This document shows, one piece after another, positions 6,698 through 53,858 of a stretch of DNA of 64,000 nt. The notes below the pieces were generated by a model. That model was not told the DNA's origin. It saw only the letters and a program-made list of their open reading frames with translations, and did not search any database. Within the stretch, counting starts at the first letter, position 1; every line of letters starts with the position of its first letter. The DNA is from Natrinema sp. DC36 (GTDB taxonomy: Archaea > Halobacteriota > Halobacteria > Halobacteriales > Natrialbaceae), in the NCBI RefSeq assembly GCF_020405225.1, contig NZ_CP084472.1, forward strand, positions 1,674,001-1,738,000. Direction: 5' to 3'. A program made the position numbers and the translations under genes.

Positions 6698-8796
6698 CGC
6701 TACTCAACGTCGAAGATCTTAAAGTCACGTACGCGACCGACGACGAACCAGTCCACGCCGTCAACGATGTCTCGTTCAGTATCGACGAGGGCGTCAACTA
6801 CGGCCTCGCCGGGGAATCCGGCTCCGGGAAGTCCACCGTCGCGGAGGCGCTGCTCGGCCTGCTCCCGACCAACGGGACCGTCGAGGGCGGTACCATCGAG
6901 TTCGACGGAACGGACCTCACGTCGCTTTCCGAGGCTGAGCGCCGGGACATCCTCTGGGAGGACATCGCCTATATCCCCCAGAGCGCGATGGACTCGCTGG
7001 ATCCTGTGATGACGACCGGCGACCAGATCGCACAGGCGATCCACACCCACCGTAACGTCACGGAGACGAAGGCGTACGACCGCGTCCGCGAACTGTTCGA
7101 AATCGTCGGCCTCGACCCGGGCCGAATCGACGACTACCCCCACGAGTTCTCCGGCGGGATGCGCCAGCGGGTCACCATCGCGATGGCGCTGGCCCTCGAG
7201 CCGGACCTCATCATCGCTGACGAGCCGACGACCGGACTGGACGTTATCGTCCAAGACAAGATCATCGACAAGATCTTGGAGATTCAAGAGCGGATGGACA
7301 GCTCCCTGCTGTTGATCACCCACGAGATCGGCGTCATCGCCGAGACCTGCGACGAGTTGTCTATCCTCTACGGCGGGAAGGTGATGGAGCAGGGCAGCGT
7401 CGACAACGTGCTGGTTAATCCGACGAATCCCTATACGATGGGACTGAAGAACTCCTTCCCGGAAATCGACGAGGACGAGGACCCCGTTGCGATCCCCGGC
7501 TCGCCGCCGAACTTGAATCGGGAGCCGACGGCCTGCGTCTTCGAGGACCGGTGTCCGTTCGCCACGGACGAGTGCGGAGAATCCCATCCGGAGCTGGTCG
7601 ATCTCCCCAACCGAAACCACCGGTCGGCTTGCCACCGCGTCAAGGAGGCGGCCCAGCTCCGACGGGACGCGGACGAGCCGGAGACGTGGAACATCCCCGA
7701 CGACGGGGATGTCGAGTCCGACCGCGGTGAAGTCATCCTCGAGACAGGTGACCTCGAGAAGCACTACGAGCAGAGCCAACCGCTGCTGAGCAAGTTCCGC
7801 GGCGAAGACCCGGATCGCGTGAAGGCAGTCGACGGCGTCTCGCTGTCCGTCCGCCGCTCGGAGGTGCTCGGCGTCGCCGGTGAGAGCGGCTGCGGGAAGT
7901 CGACGCTCGGCGAGACGATAGCGCTCCTCGAGGATCCGACGGGCGGTGAGATGACGTTCGACGGGGAGCCCTACGAGTACTACCAGGACGGCAACCTCCA
8001 GGAGTTCCGGCGAAAGGTCCAGATCGTCTTCCAGGATCCGTTCGACTCGCTCAACCCCCGCCAGACCGTCCGTAAACTCGTCGGCGAACCGCTGACGATC
8101 CACGATTACCGTACCGACGAGAAGGAGCAGGCCATCATCGAGACGCTCGAGAAGGTCGGGCTGACCCCCGCCGAGAAGATTCTCGATAACTACCCTCACG
8201 AACTCTCGGGGGGGCAGCGCCAGCGCGTGGCGGTCGCGAAGGCGCTCGTACTGGATCCCGACTTCCTGATCTGTGACGAACCGGCATCGATGCTGGACGT
8301 TTCGCTGAAGGTCAACCTGCTGAACCTGCTGCGGGGGCTCGCCGACACCGAGGAAATCGGGATCGTCTACATCTCTCACGACCTCGCGAGCCTGATGCAG
8401 GTCTCGGACCGGCTGGCCATCATGTACCTCGGCCGGATCATCGAAGAGGGTGACGTCGATCGCATCGCGACCCGGCCCAAGCATCCCTACACCTCGTCGC
8501 TGCTCTCGGCTGCGCCGGAGAAGGACCCGACTGCCGATCGAACTCGCGTCCTCCTCGAGGGAGAGCCGCCGGACCCGGTCGATCTCCCCTCGGGCTGTAC
8601 GTTCGCTCCGCGCTGTCCGAAGGCCAAGGAGTCGTGCTGGGAGGACGAACCGGCCGTCGGCGAGGCCGGTGGTGAGGGCCATCGGGCAGCGTGTTACTTC
8701 CCGGATGACGAAGACGAGCAGTCCGTGTCGGACGCGTCGGCGATGGACGAAACCGAGTTCCCCGGGTCCGCGAACACCGATTCAGTAGGTGACTGA
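6694..8796 (+). CDS. Fused peptide ABC transporter ATPase (DppD-DppF in one chain)
   Basis: This 700-residue protein carries two complete ABC ATPase domains. The first has Walker [10 protein letters not shown], signature SGGMRQRV and Walker [13 protein letters not shown]. The second has Walker [10 protein letters not shown], signature SGGQRQRV and Walker [13 protein letters not shown]. Each half ends with the OppD/OppF C-terminal extension with spaced cysteines: [14 protein letters not shown]...C, and [14 protein letters not shown]...C. This is a fusion of DppD and DppF, so one polypeptide supplies both nucleotide-binding sites. It overlaps DppC by four bases and is the last obligate operon member. 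Confidence 0.93.
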
Positions 8797-8801
8797 ATTC
8801 C

Positions 8802-10151
8802 ATGTCCGGCCTCGAGATAATCGCCGCGCTGAACGCCGTCGGCGTCGATCTTCCGTCGGATCTCGTGGCCGTCGCCGGCATCGGAACGCTTCTCGTATTG
8901 CTGATGTTATCGGCGTTCTTCTCCTCGGCGGAGATCGCGATGTTCTCGCTGGCTCAGCACCGAATCGAGGCGCTCGTCGAGGACGGTTCGCCCGGTGCCG
9001 ACATCGTACAGACGCTGAAAGCCGACCCCCATCGGTTGCTCGTAACGATCCTCGTCGGGAACAACCTGGTCAACATCGCGATGTCGTCGATCGCGACCGG
9101 ACTGCTCGCGATGTACGTCGGGCAGGGCCAGGCGGTGCTGGCGGCGACGTTCGGCGTGACGGCCGTCGTCTTGCTGTTCGGCGAGAGCGCTCCGAAGTCC
9201 TACGCCATCGAGAACACGGAATCGTGGGCGCTCACCGTCGCTCGGCCGCTGCACGTCTCGAAATACGTACTCTATCCGCTGGTGGTGACGTTCGATAGGC
9301 TGACCCGCATCGTCAACAGCCTGAGCGGCGGCGGAACCGCCGTCGAGTCCTCGTACGTGACCCGCGAGGAGATCCGGAGCCTGATACGGACCGGCGAAAA
9401 CGAGGGCATCATCGAGGCCGACGAGCGCGAAATGCTCCAACGAGTGCTCCGGTTCAACGACACGATCGCGAAAGAGGTGATGACGCCGCGGTTAGACGTC
9501 ACCGGCGTCCCTCGAACGTCGACGGTCGACGACGCCGTCGAGAAGTGCGTCGAGAGCGGCCACACCCGCTTACCGGTGTACGAGGGAGGGCTCGACACCG
9601 TCGTCGGCGTCGTCACACTCGCCGATCTCGTCCGCGACCATCAGTACGGCGAGACGGTGGACGACACGCTTGAGGACCACATCGAGGAAACGCTGCACGT
9701 CCCGGAGAGCAAGCAAATCGACGACCTGTTCCGCGAAATGCGTCACGAGCGCGTCGAACAGGTCGTCATTATCGACGAGTTCGGGACGACCGAAGGGATC
9801 GTCACGACCGAAGATATCGTCGAAGCGGTCGTCGGCGAGATACTCGATACGAAGGAAGCGGAACCCATAGAGACCGTCGATGAGCTGACGACCTACGTCG
9901 ACGGTGAGGTGAACATCGAAGCCGTCAACGACGTGATCGGCGTCGAGTTTCCGGAGGGAGAAGAGTTCGAGACGATCGCCGGTTTCCTCTTCAATCGCGC
10001 CGGGCGGTTGGTCGACCCCGGCGAGACGTTCACCTACGACGGCGTCGACCTGGCCGTCGAACGCGTTGATAACACGCGAATCAAGCGCGTGCGTATCACC
10101 GAACCCGACCCGCAAACGGCCGACGATTTCGGTGTGACTGCGTCGAGTTAG
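8802..10151 (+). CDS. Hemolysin C / CNNM-type membrane protein (DUF21, CBS pair, CorC_HlyC)
   Basis: This is a 449-residue protein. The N-terminal DUF21 region (about residues 25-190) has four hydrophobic segments, including LLSAFFSSAEIAMFSL. A CBS pair follows (about 205-335; ETVDDTLEDHIEETL and FGTTEGIVTTEDIVEAVVGEI mark the second CBS and its end). A C-terminal CorC_HlyC transporter-associated domain lies at about 350-435 (GVEFPEGEEFETIAGFLFNRAGRL). The family is linked to Mg2+/Co2+ export and ion homeostasis; the bacterial name hemolysin is historical. It starts only five bases after the ATPase stop, so it is probably cotranscribed with the peptide operon, although a functional link is not known. 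Confidence 0.88.
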   Translation: MSGLEIIAALNAVGVDLPSDLVAVAGIGTLLVLLMLSAFFSSAEIAMFSLAQHRIEALVEDGSPGADIVQTLKADPHRLLVTILVGNNLVNIAMSSIATGLLAMYVGQGQAVLAATFGVTAVVLLFGESAPKSYAIENTESWALTVARPLHVSKYVLYPLVVTFDRLTRIVNSLSGGGTAVESSYVTREEIRSLIRTGENEGIIEADEREMLQRVLRFNDTIAKEVMTPRLDVTGVPRTSTVDDAVEKCVESGHTRLPVYEGGLDTVVGVVTLADLVRDHQYGETVDDTLEDHIEETLHVPESKQIDDLFREMRHERVEQVVIIDEFGTTEGIVTTEDIVEAVVGEILDTKEAEPIETVDELTTYVDGEVNIEAVNDVIGVEFPEGEEFETIAGFLFNRAGRLVDPGETFTYDGVDLAVERVDNTRIKRVRITEPDPQTADDFGVTASS

Positions 10152-49178: not shown

Positions 49179-49892
49179 TCACTCTCGCAGTTGCTCGCGG
49201 ATCTCCCGGATCCGATCGCTCCCCTGATCGACGTAGCCGCCGTGATAACACAGCGTGTGGTCGATCTCGAGGGCCGCCAGCGCCCCGACGGACTCGATCG
49301 CGCGATCCATGTCCGGCGTGAACTGGGGCTTCGGACCGGCGAGCGGTTCGCGCTCGCTCCGCTCGTGCTCACCGTCGGTTCCCTCATCACCGTCCGCGAC
49401 GAGCGCGTCGCCGGCCACGAGCAAGTTCCCCGTTGGGAAGTACAGCGAGACGTGTCCGGGCGCGTGGCCGGGCGTTGCGACGACCTCCATCGGCCCCGCG
49501 AGCGTCGAGATACGGACCCCGTCAACCAGTTCGATATCGACGTCGACGGGCGAATAGCGGTCGCCGTCACCCTTGACCGGGTCGCGCTCGCCCGACACGT
49601 ACGGCGCTTCGTCGCGGTGGGTCGCGACGACCGCATCGACGTGCTCGAGGAGTTCCGCCAGTCCACCGACGTGATCTCCGTCGTGGTGGGTGAGGACGAC
49701 GAGCCAGACGTCCGCGAGTTCGTAGCCAAGCGATCGCAAGTGGGTCCGGAGACCGTCGACGGCACCGTCGGGACCAACGTCGCACAACACGAGTCCGCGT
49801 TCGGTCTCGACGACCGTTGGAGTTATCGTAATCTCCCTGCCTCCGTACTCGATCGCGATCGGGAGCGCGTGAACGCCAGCGTCCTCCTGCAT
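49179..49892 (-). CDS. MBL-fold metallo-hydrolase, glyoxalase II-like
   Basis: This is a 237-residue metallo-beta-lactamase-fold protein. The ATG at 49892 (MQEDAGVHALPIAIEYG) is used; a GTG at 49916 would add eight residues. The metal motif is LTHHDGDHVGG, i.e. the HxDxDH variant of HxHxDH. Later ligands are VVATPGHAPGHVSLYF (His), LLVAGDALVADG (Asp) and LCYHGGYV (His). An insertion of charged residues follows the second Asp. Substrates may be thioesters or lactones, but this is unproven. Confidence 0.83.
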   Translation of the reverse strand: MQEDAGVHALPIAIEYGGREITITPTVVETERGLVLCDVGPDGAVDGLRTHLRSLGYELADVWLVVLTHHDGDHVGGLAELLEHVDAVVATHRDEAPYVSGERDPVKGDGDRYSPVDVDIELVDGVRISTLAGPMEVVATPGHAPGHVSLYFPTGNLLVAGDALVADGDEGTDGEHERSEREPLAGPKPQFTPDMDRAIESVGALAALEIDHTLCYHGGYVDQGSDRIREIREQLRE

Positions 49893-50000
49893 ACGAGGGG
49901 CATTCGGTGCCACCACGATAGGTTTAGGTGATTCGATCGCCGATTTCGGGCGTCACTTCGGTGTGATTTCTAGCTGCCACTCATCGCTTCCCATAGATGA

Positions 50001-50008
50001 TTTTATTA
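50001..50008 (+). promoter_or_regulatory. TATA-like box of the terpene-synthase-like gene
   Basis: The tract ttttatta, inside an unusually AT-rich 40-base stretch, is centred 28 bases before the ATG at 50032, predicting a leaderless transcript. Confidence 0.45.
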
Positions 50009-50031
50009 CAATATGATTAGAAAGATGATTG

Positions 50032-51027
50032 ATGGGAGATACGGATCAACGCTTCGCCGCTGATATCGACGATGATTCCATTACGACCGTTCGCGAACAG
50101 GACCTTCCCGAGTCGGTACTACCCCTTCTCGACGTGTACGACGACGTCATCGGAGACAGAGACCGATTTCTCTGGCAGTGGCTCTATCACCTCTTTCCGA
50201 CGTTCAGACTCTCGTGTCTCGACGATACCCGCGCTCGCGAGGTGCGCAACGCGAAGCTGACCGCGTCGATATTCGTCACCGTCGCGGACGATGTCGCCGA
50301 ACGCCACGGTGACCGAGCCACGTTCGACGAACTGACGTCCATTCCGTTCGACCACCGCCGGCCGGATCCGGAGCGACGCGATGTCGACGGCGACGTCGTT
50401 CGATTTCTGATGGACGTCTGGAACGAGTTTTCGGCGCTGTACGATGCGAGCCCCCGTTCGAGGGAGTTCGCGGAGCTGTTACAGTTCGATCTTCAACAGA
50501 CGCTTCAGGCGATCGAGTACTCGTATCTCTCGAACCGGTATCCCGGTCTCGTCTCGGAACGCGAACTGTGGACGTACGACGTCCACAACATGCTGGTCTT
50601 TCCCCTCGCTGGGATCGATCTCTCGAACGCACCGTCGTTCGACTCGAGCGAACTCTCATCCCTTCGGCAGGTTCTCGACCGGACCCAGCGGATGGCCCGC
50701 ATCGGCAACTGGATCTCGACGTGGAAGCGCGAACTCGCCGAGGGCGACTGTAGCTCCGGCGTCGTCGTCCACGCGCTGGAAAACGACGTCGTCTCGCCAG
50801 AACAGGTGCAGGCGGTCCGGCGGAACCCGACGGACGCGACGGTCGATCCGGTCGTCGAAGCGATTACCGACGCCGGCGTCGAGGACTACTTTCTGGACCG
50901 GTGGGACGCCGAGTACGAGACGGTCGGTCGCTACGAGTCCGAGATCGAGAGCGTCGATGTCGGCGCGTACCTCGAGGGGTTCGAGACGGTGCTGAGCTAT
51001 CACCTCGCGAGCGAAGGCGAAAAGTGA
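50032..51027 (+). CDS. Class I terpene-synthase-like protein (isoprenoid synthase fold)
   Basis: This is a 331-residue soluble, mostly helical protein. Numbering is from the ATG at 50032; a TTG directly before it is ignored. It shows the motif set of class I terpene synthases in the right order and spacing. The Asp-rich motif is VADDVAERHGD (Asp86-Asp87-x-x-Glu90). An NSE-type triad lies about 140 residues later, GNWISTWKRELAEGD (Asn226, Thr230, Glu234). A candidate diphosphate-sensing Arg is Arg177, about 49 residues before the triad, and Arg300-Tyr301 lies about 75 residues after it, like the C-terminal RY pair of bacterial enzymes. No prenyltransferase second DDxxD is present. The product cannot be predicted. 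Neighbours are not isoprenoid genes. Confidence 0.6.
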   Translation: MGDTDQRFAADIDDDSITTVREQDLPESVLPLLDVYDDVIGDRDRFLWQWLYHLFPTFRLSCLDDTRAREVRNAKLTASIFVTVADDVAERHGDRATFDELTSIPFDHRRPDPERRDVDGDVVRFLMDVWNEFSALYDASPRSREFAELLQFDLQQTLQAIEYSYLSNRYPGLVSERELWTYDVHNMLVFPLAGIDLSNAPSFDSSELSSLRQVLDRTQRMARIGNWISTWKRELAEGDCSSGVVVHALENDVVSPEQVQAVRRNPTDATVDPVVEAITDAGVEDYFLDRWDAEYETVGRYESEIESVDVGAYLEGFETVLSYHLASEGEK

Positions 51028-51118: not shown

Positions 51119-52309
51119 CTACGACGAGAGCGCCGTCTCGAACGCGTTCTCGAGGTCGCCGATCAGATCGTCGACGTGCTCGATCCCGACGCTGACGCGG
51201 ATCAGGCTGTCCGAGAGTCCGGCCTCGATGCGCTCTTCGCGGGGAATCGCAGCGTGGGTCATCGGTGCGGGCTGCTCGATCAGGCTCTCGACGCCGCCGA
51301 GGCTCTCCGCGAGCGTGAACACCTCGGTGTTCGAGACGACTGCACTCGCTTCCTCGAGGCTCGCGTCCAGTTCGAAGCTCAGCATACCGCCGAAATCGTC
51401 CATCTGCTCGGCGGCGATATCGTGGCCGGGATGGGACTCGAGACCGGGGTAGTACACCCGGTCGACGGCGGGATGGTCGTCGAGCCACGTCGCGATCGCT
51501 CGGGCGTTTTCACAGTGGCGGTCCATTCGGACGGGCAGCGTCTTCGTGCCCCGAAGGACGAGGAACGAGTCGAAGGGACCCGGCGTCGCGCCGACCGAGT
51601 TCTGGTAGAACCCCAGTCGCTCGTCCAGGTCCTCGTCGTCGGTCAGCAGCGCGCCGCCGACGACGTCCGAATGGCCGCCGAGGTACTTCGTGAGCGAGTG
51701 CGAGACGATATCCGCGCCGAGAGCCAGCGGCCGCTGGAGGTACGGCGTCGCGAACGTGTTGTCGATCGCACAGAGCGCGTCGTGCGCGTGGGCGATCTCG
51801 GCCGCCCCCTCGATATCGACGATCGACATGAGCGGGTTCGTCGGCGTCTCGAGCCACAGCAGTTCCGTCCCGTCCCGAAACGCCGCCTCGATCTCGTCGA
51901 GGTCGGTCATATCGACGAACGAGAACTCGAGGTCGTAGTCCTCGTACACCTGCGTGAAGATGCGGTGCGTGCCGCCGTAGACGTCGTTGCCGGTCACGAC
52001 GTGGTCGCCGGCCTCGAGCAGGTTCAAGACGGTGTTAATCGAGGCCATCCCACTGGCGAACGCGCGGCCGTACTCGGCACCCTCGAGGCTCGCGAGGTTC
52101 GCCTCGAGATCGGTTCGGGTCGGGTTCCCGGTGCGGGAGTACTCGTAGCCGCGATGCTCCCCGGGCGCGTCCTGCTCGTACGTCGAGTTGGCGTGGATCG
52201 GCGTCATCAACGCGCCGGTTTCCGCGTCTGGCTCCTGGCCGGCGTGGATCGAGCGGGTCTCGATCCGAAACTGCTCGCCGTCGCTCTGGCCGTTTGTATC
52301 GTCGTCCAT
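51119..52309 (-). CDS. Cystathionine gamma-synthase / lyase-type PLP enzyme
   Basis: This is a 396-residue Cys/Met-metabolism PLP enzyme. The ATG at 52309 (MDDDTNGQSDGEQFRIETR) is chosen; an ORF extension to 52402 is basic and unlike the rest. Hallmarks are IHAGQEPDAETGALMTPIHA, YEYSRTGNPTR (substrate Tyr/Arg), GMASINTVLNLLEAGDHVV (PLP phosphate) and VSHSLTKYLGGHSDVVGG, where Lys binds PLP. Synthase and lyase activities cannot be told apart from sequence alone. No other methionine gene is adjacent. Confidence 0.9.
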   Translation of the reverse strand: MDDDTNGQSDGEQFRIETRSIHAGQEPDAETGALMTPIHANSTYEQDAPGEHRGYEYSRTGNPTRTDLEANLASLEGAEYGRAFASGMASINTVLNLLEAGDHVVTGNDVYGGTHRIFTQVYEDYDLEFSFVDMTDLDEIEAAFRDGTELLWLETPTNPLMSIVDIEGAAEIAHAHDALCAIDNTFATPYLQRPLALGADIVSHSLTKYLGGHSDVVGGALLTDDEDLDERLGFYQNSVGATPGPFDSFLVLRGTKTLPVRMDRHCENARAIATWLDDHPAVDRVYYPGLESHPGHDIAAEQMDDFGGMLSFELDASLEEASAVVSNTEVFTLAESLGGVESLIEQPAPMTHAAIPREERIEAGLSDSLIRVSVGIEHVDDLIGDLENAFETALSS

Positions 52310-52463
52310 ACCGACACAACGTGATCGAGCGGGGTTATTCTGCCGACTGGCAGTCGTCGTCATTCGTCGGCGCAGTCCCCGCGAATCGGACGGAGACCGC
52401 ACGAGTCGTTTCGACTGTCAGTCACCGCCGACAGTCCGTTCTCATGCCGTGTGATTCTCGGAA

Positions 52464-52474: not shown

Positions 52475-52496
52475 TTTGATTGTCATTTCGTTTCGT

Positions 52497-53858
52497 ATGC
52501 GCGTCCGACACATCAAATCATCAACGGTTGTCGTCGAATCCGGTGACGTCTCGGTCCTCTGTGACCCCTGGATCCTCGACGGCGCGTTCTACGGTGCCTG
52601 GGCGCACTACCCACCGGTCGAGTTCGAACCTGACGACTTCGACGAGATCGACTACATCTACGTCTCGCACATTCATCCGGATCACTGCCACCGCGAAACG
52701 CTCGAGCGGCTCGACTCCGAGATCCCGGTCCTGATCCACGATTACAACTGGGACTTCCTCAGACACAACGTCGAGGCCGCCGGGTTCGAGGTCCGCGAAC
52801 TCCCTCACGGCGAGCGGATCCACCTCGGCGGCGACCTGCACGTGAACGTGCTCGCATCCGACGACTGCGATCCCGCGGTCTGTGGCAACCACTTCGCCTG
52901 TCCGTGGATGGCCGAAGACGCCAGCAGCCAGGGAGTCGACGGCTCGACGCAGATCGACTCGATGGCCGTCTTCGACGACGGCGAGCATACCGTTCTCAAC
53001 CTGAACGACTGTCGGTGGCCGATGTCTCAACGCGCTGCCGGCCGCGTGAAACGGCAGTACGGCGGGATCGATCTGGCGATGCTCCAGTACACCTTCGCCG
53101 GTGGCTATCCCCAGGGCCGGATCGATTATTCCCACGAAACGTTGATCGAAGAGCGCGAGGCCCGCCGACTCCAGTCGCTCGATAATGCCGTCGGCTTCCT
53201 CGAGTTGCTCGAGCCGGACTATTACATGCCCTTCGCCGGCAGCTACACGCTGGCGGGCGATCTCGCGGAGTTGAACGAGTACGTGGCGCGGTCGACGCGG
53301 GCACAGGCGCGCGACTATTTCGAGAGCGAAGAACAGATCGACGACGGATCCGAGTGCGTCCTCCTCAACAGCGGCGAGTGGTTCGACGTCGGCGCCGGCG
53401 AGCAGTCGGCCTCCTACACGTCGATCGATCCCGACGAGCGCCGAGCGTACATCGAGACCGAACTCGTGGACCGGGAGTTCACCTACGAGTCGGATCCGAT
53501 TCCGACCCTCGAGGCGTTCAGGGAGTACGTCCCGGCGGCCTACGAGAACTTCGACGCCAAGCGCCGCGGGATCGGGTTCGAATCGGAGACGGAAGTCGTC
53601 CTCTCGCTGGTCGACGACCACTACCTGCGGTTTACCGCGGACGGGGGCGGCCACCAAATCGTCGACGGATTGCCGGCGCGAACCGACCGGCGGCGGGTTC
53701 GAATGGAGATGGATCCTCGACTGACGCTGCGGATCCTGAAGGGGCCGCGGTACGCTCACTTCAACAACGCCTACATCGGCTCGCATCTCGGCTTTTCGAT
53801 CGAGCCGGACGTCTACGAGCGCTCCCTGTTCTACTCGATGAGTTTCCTGCACGCGTGA
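52497..53858 (+). CDS. MBL-fold hydrolase, UlaG / CMP-sialate-hydroxylase-like
   Basis: This is a 453-residue protein starting MRVRHIKSSTVVVESGDVS. The first 250 residues are an MBL domain of the UlaG-like group, beginning LCDPWILDGAFYGAWAHYPP and with an intact metal motif YVSHIHPDHCH. Further ligand candidates lie at NLNDCRWPM and MPFAGSYTL. The last 200 residues form a second domain (NSGEWFDVGAGEQSAS onward) ending ALFYSMSFLHA-like text. The layout resembles CMP-N-acetylneuraminate hydroxylase-like proteins without the Rieske domain. The substrate may be a sugar-linked or lipid phosphate ester, but this is inference. Confidence 0.75.
   Translation: MRVRHIKSSTVVVESGDVSVLCDPWILDGAFYGAWAHYPPVEFEPDDFDEIDYIYVSHIHPDHCHRETLERLDSEIPVLIHDYNWDFLRHNVEAAGFEVRELPHGERIHLGGDLHVNVLASDDCDPAVCGNHFACPWMAEDASSQGVDGSTQIDSMAVFDDGEHTVLNLNDCRWPMSQRAAGRVKRQYGGIDLAMLQYTFAGGYPQGRIDYSHETLIEEREARRLQSLDNAVGFLELLEPDYYMPFAGSYTLAGDLAELNEYVARSTRAQARDYFESEEQIDDGSECVLLNSGEWFDVGAGEQSASYTSIDPDERRAYIETELVDREFTYESDPIPTLEAFREYVPAAYENFDAKRRGIGFESETEVVLSLVDDHYLRFTADGGGHQIVDGLPARTDRRRVRMEMDPRLTLRILKGPRYAHFNNAYIGSHLGFSIEPDVYERSLFYSMSFLHA

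Follow-up and report, generated by a model that had tools for sequence, protein, structure and literature searches.

The window analysed here, a 64,000-nucleotide stretch of the Natrinema sp. DC36 genome, holds a terpene-synthase-like gene with the following neighbours and features.

49179..49916, minus strand: separate, divergent neighbour gene for a metallo-beta-lactamase-fold hydrolase (gene calling and Pfam)
50002..50009, plus strand: AT-rich TTTATTAC box, 23-30 bases 5' of the ATG
50032..51027, plus strand: terpene-synthase-like gene, ATG start, 331 aa, stop codon ending at 51027
50287..50301, plus strand: Asp-rich metal motif D86-D87-V-A-E90 (DDVAE), from conservation in the alignment
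50698..50700, plus strand: R223, one helical turn before N226 and on the same helix face
50707..50733, plus strand: second metal motif N226-x3-T230-x3-E234 (NSE/NTE triad), from conservation in the alignment
50728..50730, plus strand: R233, at the place taken by the Lys/Arg next to Glu in the ND(L,I,V)xSxx(K,R)E motif
51119..52402, minus strand: convergent neighbour gene for a Cys/Met-metabolism PLP enzyme (gene calling and Pfam)

The ATG-started open reading frame has the 331 residues given in the preliminary description, and an in-frame TTG at 50029 lies immediately 5' of its start. The AT-rich promoter proposed there has a counterpart in the TTTATTAC box, which keeps a similar distance from the ATG in all six Natrinema orthologues whose upstream DNA was compared; judging by its position, the box is probably the TATA element of a leaderless haloarchaeal promoter. 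It was also correctly noted that no isoprenoid gene is found among the immediate neighbours, and we saw no tailoring genes at the locus. The genome itself encodes three unambiguous polyprenyl synthases, and a fourth match is borderline; none of them lies inside the window, and prenyl diphosphates can thus be supplied. Synteny with the convergent Cys/Met-metabolism gene is kept in Natrinema thermotolerans, where that neighbour is annotated as cystathionine gamma-synthase. Past this gene, a 460-aa open reading frame (window positions 52476-53858, plus strand) carries a metallo-beta-lactamase-like HIHPDHC motif.

The protein had been described as an orphan, a view that its distribution overturns. 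Homologues, mostly 30-69% identical, occur in 120 of 391 Halobacteria genomes and in 39 of 86 genera, and some of these genomes carry two or three family copies. The family also extends beyond the Halobacteria in a phylum-wide genome sample, where 10 of the 12 tested homologue-bearing genomes outside the class encode methyl-coenzyme M reductase and are therefore methanogens. Homologues in two genomes without a match to this enzyme lie at L144 (6004-6786, minus strand; genome G478) and L143 (G525); the former lacks the Asp-rich and triad motifs, appears decayed and has a methyltransferase-like gene downstream. In one methanogen genus, a PHP-type phosphoesterase-like open reading frame and an FAD oxidoreductase lie near the family gene (L139-L141, ~7150-9150). 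Six haloarchaeal plasmid records in which a homologue occurs were checked, and all annotate it as a hypothetical protein; no homologues were found in viral contigs. The window's open reading frame is a genuine gene, and the archaeal family to which it belongs has no name.

Profile searches connect this family to terpene synthases. A comparison with terpene synthase profiles, proposed in the preliminary description as a check, came out in favour: Terpene_syn_C_2 (PF19086) matches residues 80-261 of the window protein with 30.8 bits (E 3e-7) against a curated cut-off of 23.7. The same profile finds 70 of 89 family members at E <= 0.1, and no second match in the window's own genome; some family members stay below the cut-off. 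Searches of NCBIfam, and of the PDB with the single sequence, returned no match for the window protein. The family profile retrieved three PDB chains at E <= 10, namely two class I diterpene synthases and a designed protein. The only natural proteins among them, Sat1646 and Stt4548 (E 0.056 and 1.7), are bacterial enzymes that act on copalyl diphosphate (PDB 7e4n, 7e4m; PMC9814573). The best match, to Sat1646, is weak. The alignment to these enzymes matches the triad residue for residue, with RLSNDLASYERDIRSGDL set against RIGNWxxTWERELxEGD in the triad region. Against ten canonical synthases, five haloarchaeal and five bacterial, hhalign gave a weak match (probability 29%) with the triad placed three residues off, and a small HMM of canonical synthases placed the triad ungapped while scoring the family at only ~3-12 bits.

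Structure prediction with AlphaFold2, from three input sequences only, produced low-confidence all-helical models of the window protein (pLDDT 48.7) and of the L002 orthologue (pLDDT 48.0), which is 68% identical to it. Foldseek ranks for the low-confidence window model are mixed, with isoprenoid synthases on top. For the equally low-confidence L002 model (best E 0.005), at least 47 of the best 50 matches have the isoprenoid-synthase fold, most of them prenyl diphosphate synthases. Neither low-confidence model gave a match at E 1e-3 or better, and we take the ranks as support for an isoprenoid-synthase fold, not as proof of it.

The metal-binding motifs provide a further link. Both motifs of the preliminary description, DDxxE at 86-90 and N-x3-T-x3-E at 226-234 some 140 residues later, are present and conserved in an alignment of 107 haloarchaeal proteins to which 11 methanogen proteins were added. 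Among the haloarchaeal sequences, residue 86 is Asp in 103 and Asn in 4, D87 is invariant, and residue 90 is Glu in 95 and Asp in 12; all 11 methanogen homologues have DDxxD when read ungapped, although in those of the Methanosarcina type the alignment program had placed a gap at this point. N226 and E234 are found in 107/107, residue 230 is Thr in 103 and Ser in 4, and the triad Asn, Thr and Glu are likewise invariant in the methanogen homologues. The distance from the Asp-rich motif to the triad is 140 residues, compared with 139 in the first of the ten aligned canonical synthases. These motifs were kept while most of the family sequence drifted.

Aspartate and glutamate are abundant in haloarchaeal proteins, and an unrelated, all-helical, acid-rich protein might come to carry DDxxE and NxxxTxxxE by chance, as indeed happened with two further motifs claimed for this one (an Arg177 and an Arg-Tyr pair). 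To estimate this chance we used 366 similar-sized proteins from the fetched loci as background: the motif pair at a spacing of 130-150 residues occurs in one of these versus 97 of the 107 family members. Since both motifs also persist in methanogen homologues of different composition, the PF19086 score exceeds its cut-off, and isoprenoid synthases head the Foldseek ranks, we consider chance resemblance very improbable.

The residues expected around the diphosphate tell a different story. In the first row of the canonical set the sensor Arg stands at N-46 (counting from the triad Asn) and the C-terminal Arg-Tyr pair at N+87/+88, and the pyrophosphate-sensor Arg is usually located 46 residues upstream of the triad (PMC8450962). 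Arg177, the proposed sensor, is at N-49 and is kept in 35 of 107 proteins. The canonical position, residue 180, is Trp in 30, Glu in 20 and Arg in 17 of the 107, and an Arg anywhere within N-47 to N-45 is found in only 49/107; the family lacks the sensor arginine. The proposed R300-Y301 pair is similarly misplaced, at N+74/+75, and poorly kept (R300 in 17/107, Y301 in 16/107); only three of the 107 have Arg-Tyr within N+78 to N+94, and a C-terminal pair is not a feature of the family. The residue after N226 is Trp in 107/107, where canonical synthases have Asp, and the Asn 8-9 residues after the triad is missing (position 242 is Ser or Ala in 103/107, and 243 mostly Gly). In selinadiene synthase this Asp forms a bridge with the sensor Arg (PMC8450962); in the archaeal family, with Trp in its place, it has gone together with the sensor.

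Of the full motif set that had been announced for this protein, two of four motifs therefore hold. Conservation across homologues, suggested at the time as a test of all four, supports DDxxE and the triad and fails for Arg177 and Arg-Tyr; likewise, the match in order and spacing is borne out by the metal motifs (140 versus 139 residues) and contradicted by the positions of R177 and R300-Y301. Bacterial class I terpene synthases of PF19086, such as pentalenene and selinadiene synthase, resemble the archaeal family in length, in carrying DDxx(E/D) at around residue 90 and Nxxx(S/T)xx(K/R)E at around residue 230, and in the spacing between these, whereas the archaeal family is without the N-46 Arg, the post-Asn Asp (replaced by Trp), the Asn 8-9 residues after the triad and the Arg-Tyr pair. 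At the level of sequence, the family has what defines class I terpene synthases as metal binders and lacks three of their secondary features.

Such losses have precedent. SmTS1, the sestermobaraene synthase of Streptomyces mobaraensis, is active although it has neither the sensor Arg nor the NSE Asp nor the downstream Asn (PMC8450962), which suggests that the same losses are compatible with activity in the archaeal family. SmTS1, however, is a special case among bacterial enzymes, whereas in the archaea the losses mark the whole family. The non-canonical terpene synthases of classes IB-IF (PMC11234867, a text with no mention of archaea) can likewise sit away from isoprenoid genes and be missed by the usual searches, but they lack the canonical metal motifs that the archaeal family keeps.

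Other basic residues may have replaced the canonical diphosphate-site residues. R43, R212, R223 and R233 are invariant in Halobacteria, and position 75 is Lys or Arg in 94%. R233, at the Lys/Arg position of the motif as defined in PMC8450962, is Arg in all 107 haloarchaeal proteins and Arg or Lys in methanogens. R223, from its place beside the triad, is a candidate substitute diphosphate contact; it is found in 107/107 Halobacteria and in 5 of 11 methanogen homologues, and is Met in six Methanosarcina-type ones. Methanosarcina-type proteins keep R43, K75 and R/K233 and do not keep R212 and R223.

We conclude, with a probability of about two in three, that the gene product belongs to the class I terpene synthases as a divergent archaeal member, or else is very closely analogous to them in function; it is most likely a metal-dependent enzyme that ionises prenyl diphosphates. 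In the predicted mechanism, two acidic motifs on facing helices would bind Mg2+, and the Mg2+ cluster would hold the diphosphate of a prenyl diphosphate substrate, probably assisted by R43, K75 and R233, plus R212 and R223 in Halobacteria, in place of the canonical residues. Loss of the diphosphate would then set off carbocation chemistry within a pocket rich in Trp. The class I assignment of the preliminary description is thus retained on the evidence of Pfam, the metal motifs, the PDB profile match and the Foldseek ranks, and its diphosphate site built on Arg177 and Arg-Tyr is abandoned. Counting against our reading are the models at pLDDT ~48, the Foldseek matches that all fall short of E 1e-3, the best PDB E-value of 0.056, the weak scores of canonical profiles, the four missing canonical diphosphate-site features, the lack of tailoring genes at the window locus and the lack of sensor neighbours in the window's own clade.

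Cyclases and chain-elongating synthases use the same metal chemistry, and it is conceivable that the protein has the class I fold without being a cyclase, acting instead like a prenyltransferase or a phosphatase, so that the prenyl group is passed on or set free and no terpene ring is formed. The prevalence of chain-elongating prenyl diphosphate synthases, not cyclases, in the L002 Foldseek ranks would fit, as would a diphosphate site that differs from that of canonical cyclases. Nevertheless, the second motif is the NxxxTxxxE of cyclases rather than the second DDxxD of chain-elongating enzymes, and both Pfam and the PDB profile search indicate terpene synthases, not polyprenyl synthetases; we therefore regard this alternative as unlikely.

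The genes that accompany the family suggest when its members might be expressed. We examined 76 haloarchaeal loci, in which genes were called with a simple codon model and their products clustered. A sensor or regulator gene lies within two genes of the family gene in 42 of them. By Pfam, the gene before encodes PAS in 20 loci and BAT + GAF + HTH_10 in 16, and the gene after encodes HVO_A0261_N/FilR1_middle in 10 and PAS in 5; none of these appears among the families listed for the fifth gene before. By cluster, regulator-type genes make up 69 of 303 genes at +-1-2 versus 5 of 261 genes at +-5-6 (p 3e-15 in Fisher's test, a value that ignores the relatedness of the loci). In a tree of 84 proteins, one clade has a BAT/PAS gene at most two genes away in 21/21 loci, and this gene is arranged in three ways (before the family gene and divergent, before it on the same strand, or after it on the same strand), so the gene link has survived rearrangement. 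An HVO_A0261-type regulator adjoins the family gene in 12 loci, in some with a 4-base overlap. In all seven Methanosarcina-type loci a PAS-protein gene, recognised by sequence likeness, is directly upstream on the same strand, and the two that were scanned both encode PAS histidine kinases. Given the adjacency to PAS/GAF sensor kinases, BAT-type HTH_10 regulators, HalOD1/DUF7344 proteins and HVO_A0261-type regulators, many of the relatives are probably expressed under environmental control. The case for such regulation is poorest in the window's own copy, since tree and loci show no sensor neighbour in its own clade, where a metallo-beta-lactamase gene lies upstream instead; the cluster of this hydrolase adjoins the family gene in 12 of the 76 loci.

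No conserved tailoring or prenyl synthase gene is among the families listed at +-1 in the 76 loci, and we reject the idea that the family gene sits within isoprenoid gene clusters. Methyltransferase genes, one downstream at L146 and the methyltransferase-like one adjoining at L144, are too few to use. The strong tendency of the family gene to adjoin sensory genes, in Halobacteria as in genomes of the Methanosarcina type, and the fact that the families listed for its neighbours include no conserved isoprenoid-processing one, could be read as the mark of a pseudo-enzyme that binds prenyl diphosphate as a regulatory partner of the neighbouring PAS kinases and regulators, without turnover. We think this distinctly unlikely, as the metal ligands are all strongly constrained family-wide, for which a protein that only binds has no obvious use, and 34 of the 76 loci, the window's clade included, have no sensor or regulator neighbour. 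If the family members are terpene synthases, it is tempting to speculate that they form an ancient archaeal offshoot of class I in which the diphosphate site was rebuilt. They would work with dedicated PAS/BAT sensor partners in haloarchaea and methanogens, and their terpenoid (a signal, a volatile or a membrane-active compound) would belong to the sensed environmental response. This broader proposal is, taken as a whole, rather doubtful.

Terpene synthases are the makers of scent- and drug-like hydrocarbons, and archaeal membranes are built from isoprenoids. Terpene clusters of the antiSMASH type have been stated for archaea (PMC8600319, PMC10105419, PMC12144867), and a 2023 survey states that no archaeal gene cluster had been confidently tied to a secondary metabolite except halocin and bacterioruberin, a terpene of the membrane (PMC10105419). 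Our literature search found no account of this archaeal family; most subscription journals are outside its coverage, and an earlier report is possible. New here is the link of the family to sensor and regulator neighbours, in 42/76 haloarchaeal and 7/7 Methanosarcina-type loci. The window gene may be the source of an undescribed archaeal terpenoid. With members in ~30% of the sampled haloarchaea and in methanogens, the family is a testable potential source of archaeal terpenoids, and the frequent adjacency to environmental sensors offers a hint as to when the product should be sought.

Haloarchaea also harbor a second, bacterial-type lineage of terpene synthases. These proteins, from Actinarchaeum halophilum and Halocatena marina, share with the family haloarchaeal hosts and PF19086; they differ in having canonical motifs, an extra N-terminal SRPBCC domain and a polyprenyl synthase next door, and they score far higher (136-170 bits in the four copies scored, versus 30.8 for the window protein). 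In A. halophilum YIM 93972, a haloarchaeon that forms hyphae and spores (PMC10067837), a plasmid encodes two canonical terpene synthases (L134, 4848-6284, minus strand, and 7008-8399, plus strand; L153 corresponds to NZ_CP071308.1 57502-70935). They score 164-170 bits, a polyprenyl synthase gene lies beside each, integrase and transposase genes are near, and the N-terminal domain of the copy scanned is SRPBCC/polyketide-cyclase-like. Synthases of this type also occur in Halocatena marina, accompanied by a polyprenyl synthase gene, and in G231, a haloarchaeon from the same family as the window's genome (loci in these two genomes: L152, 6010-8394; L135, 1959-3392; L136, 492-1889). G231 carries two such synthase copies, one of them on a short contig together with a cytochrome P450 gene.
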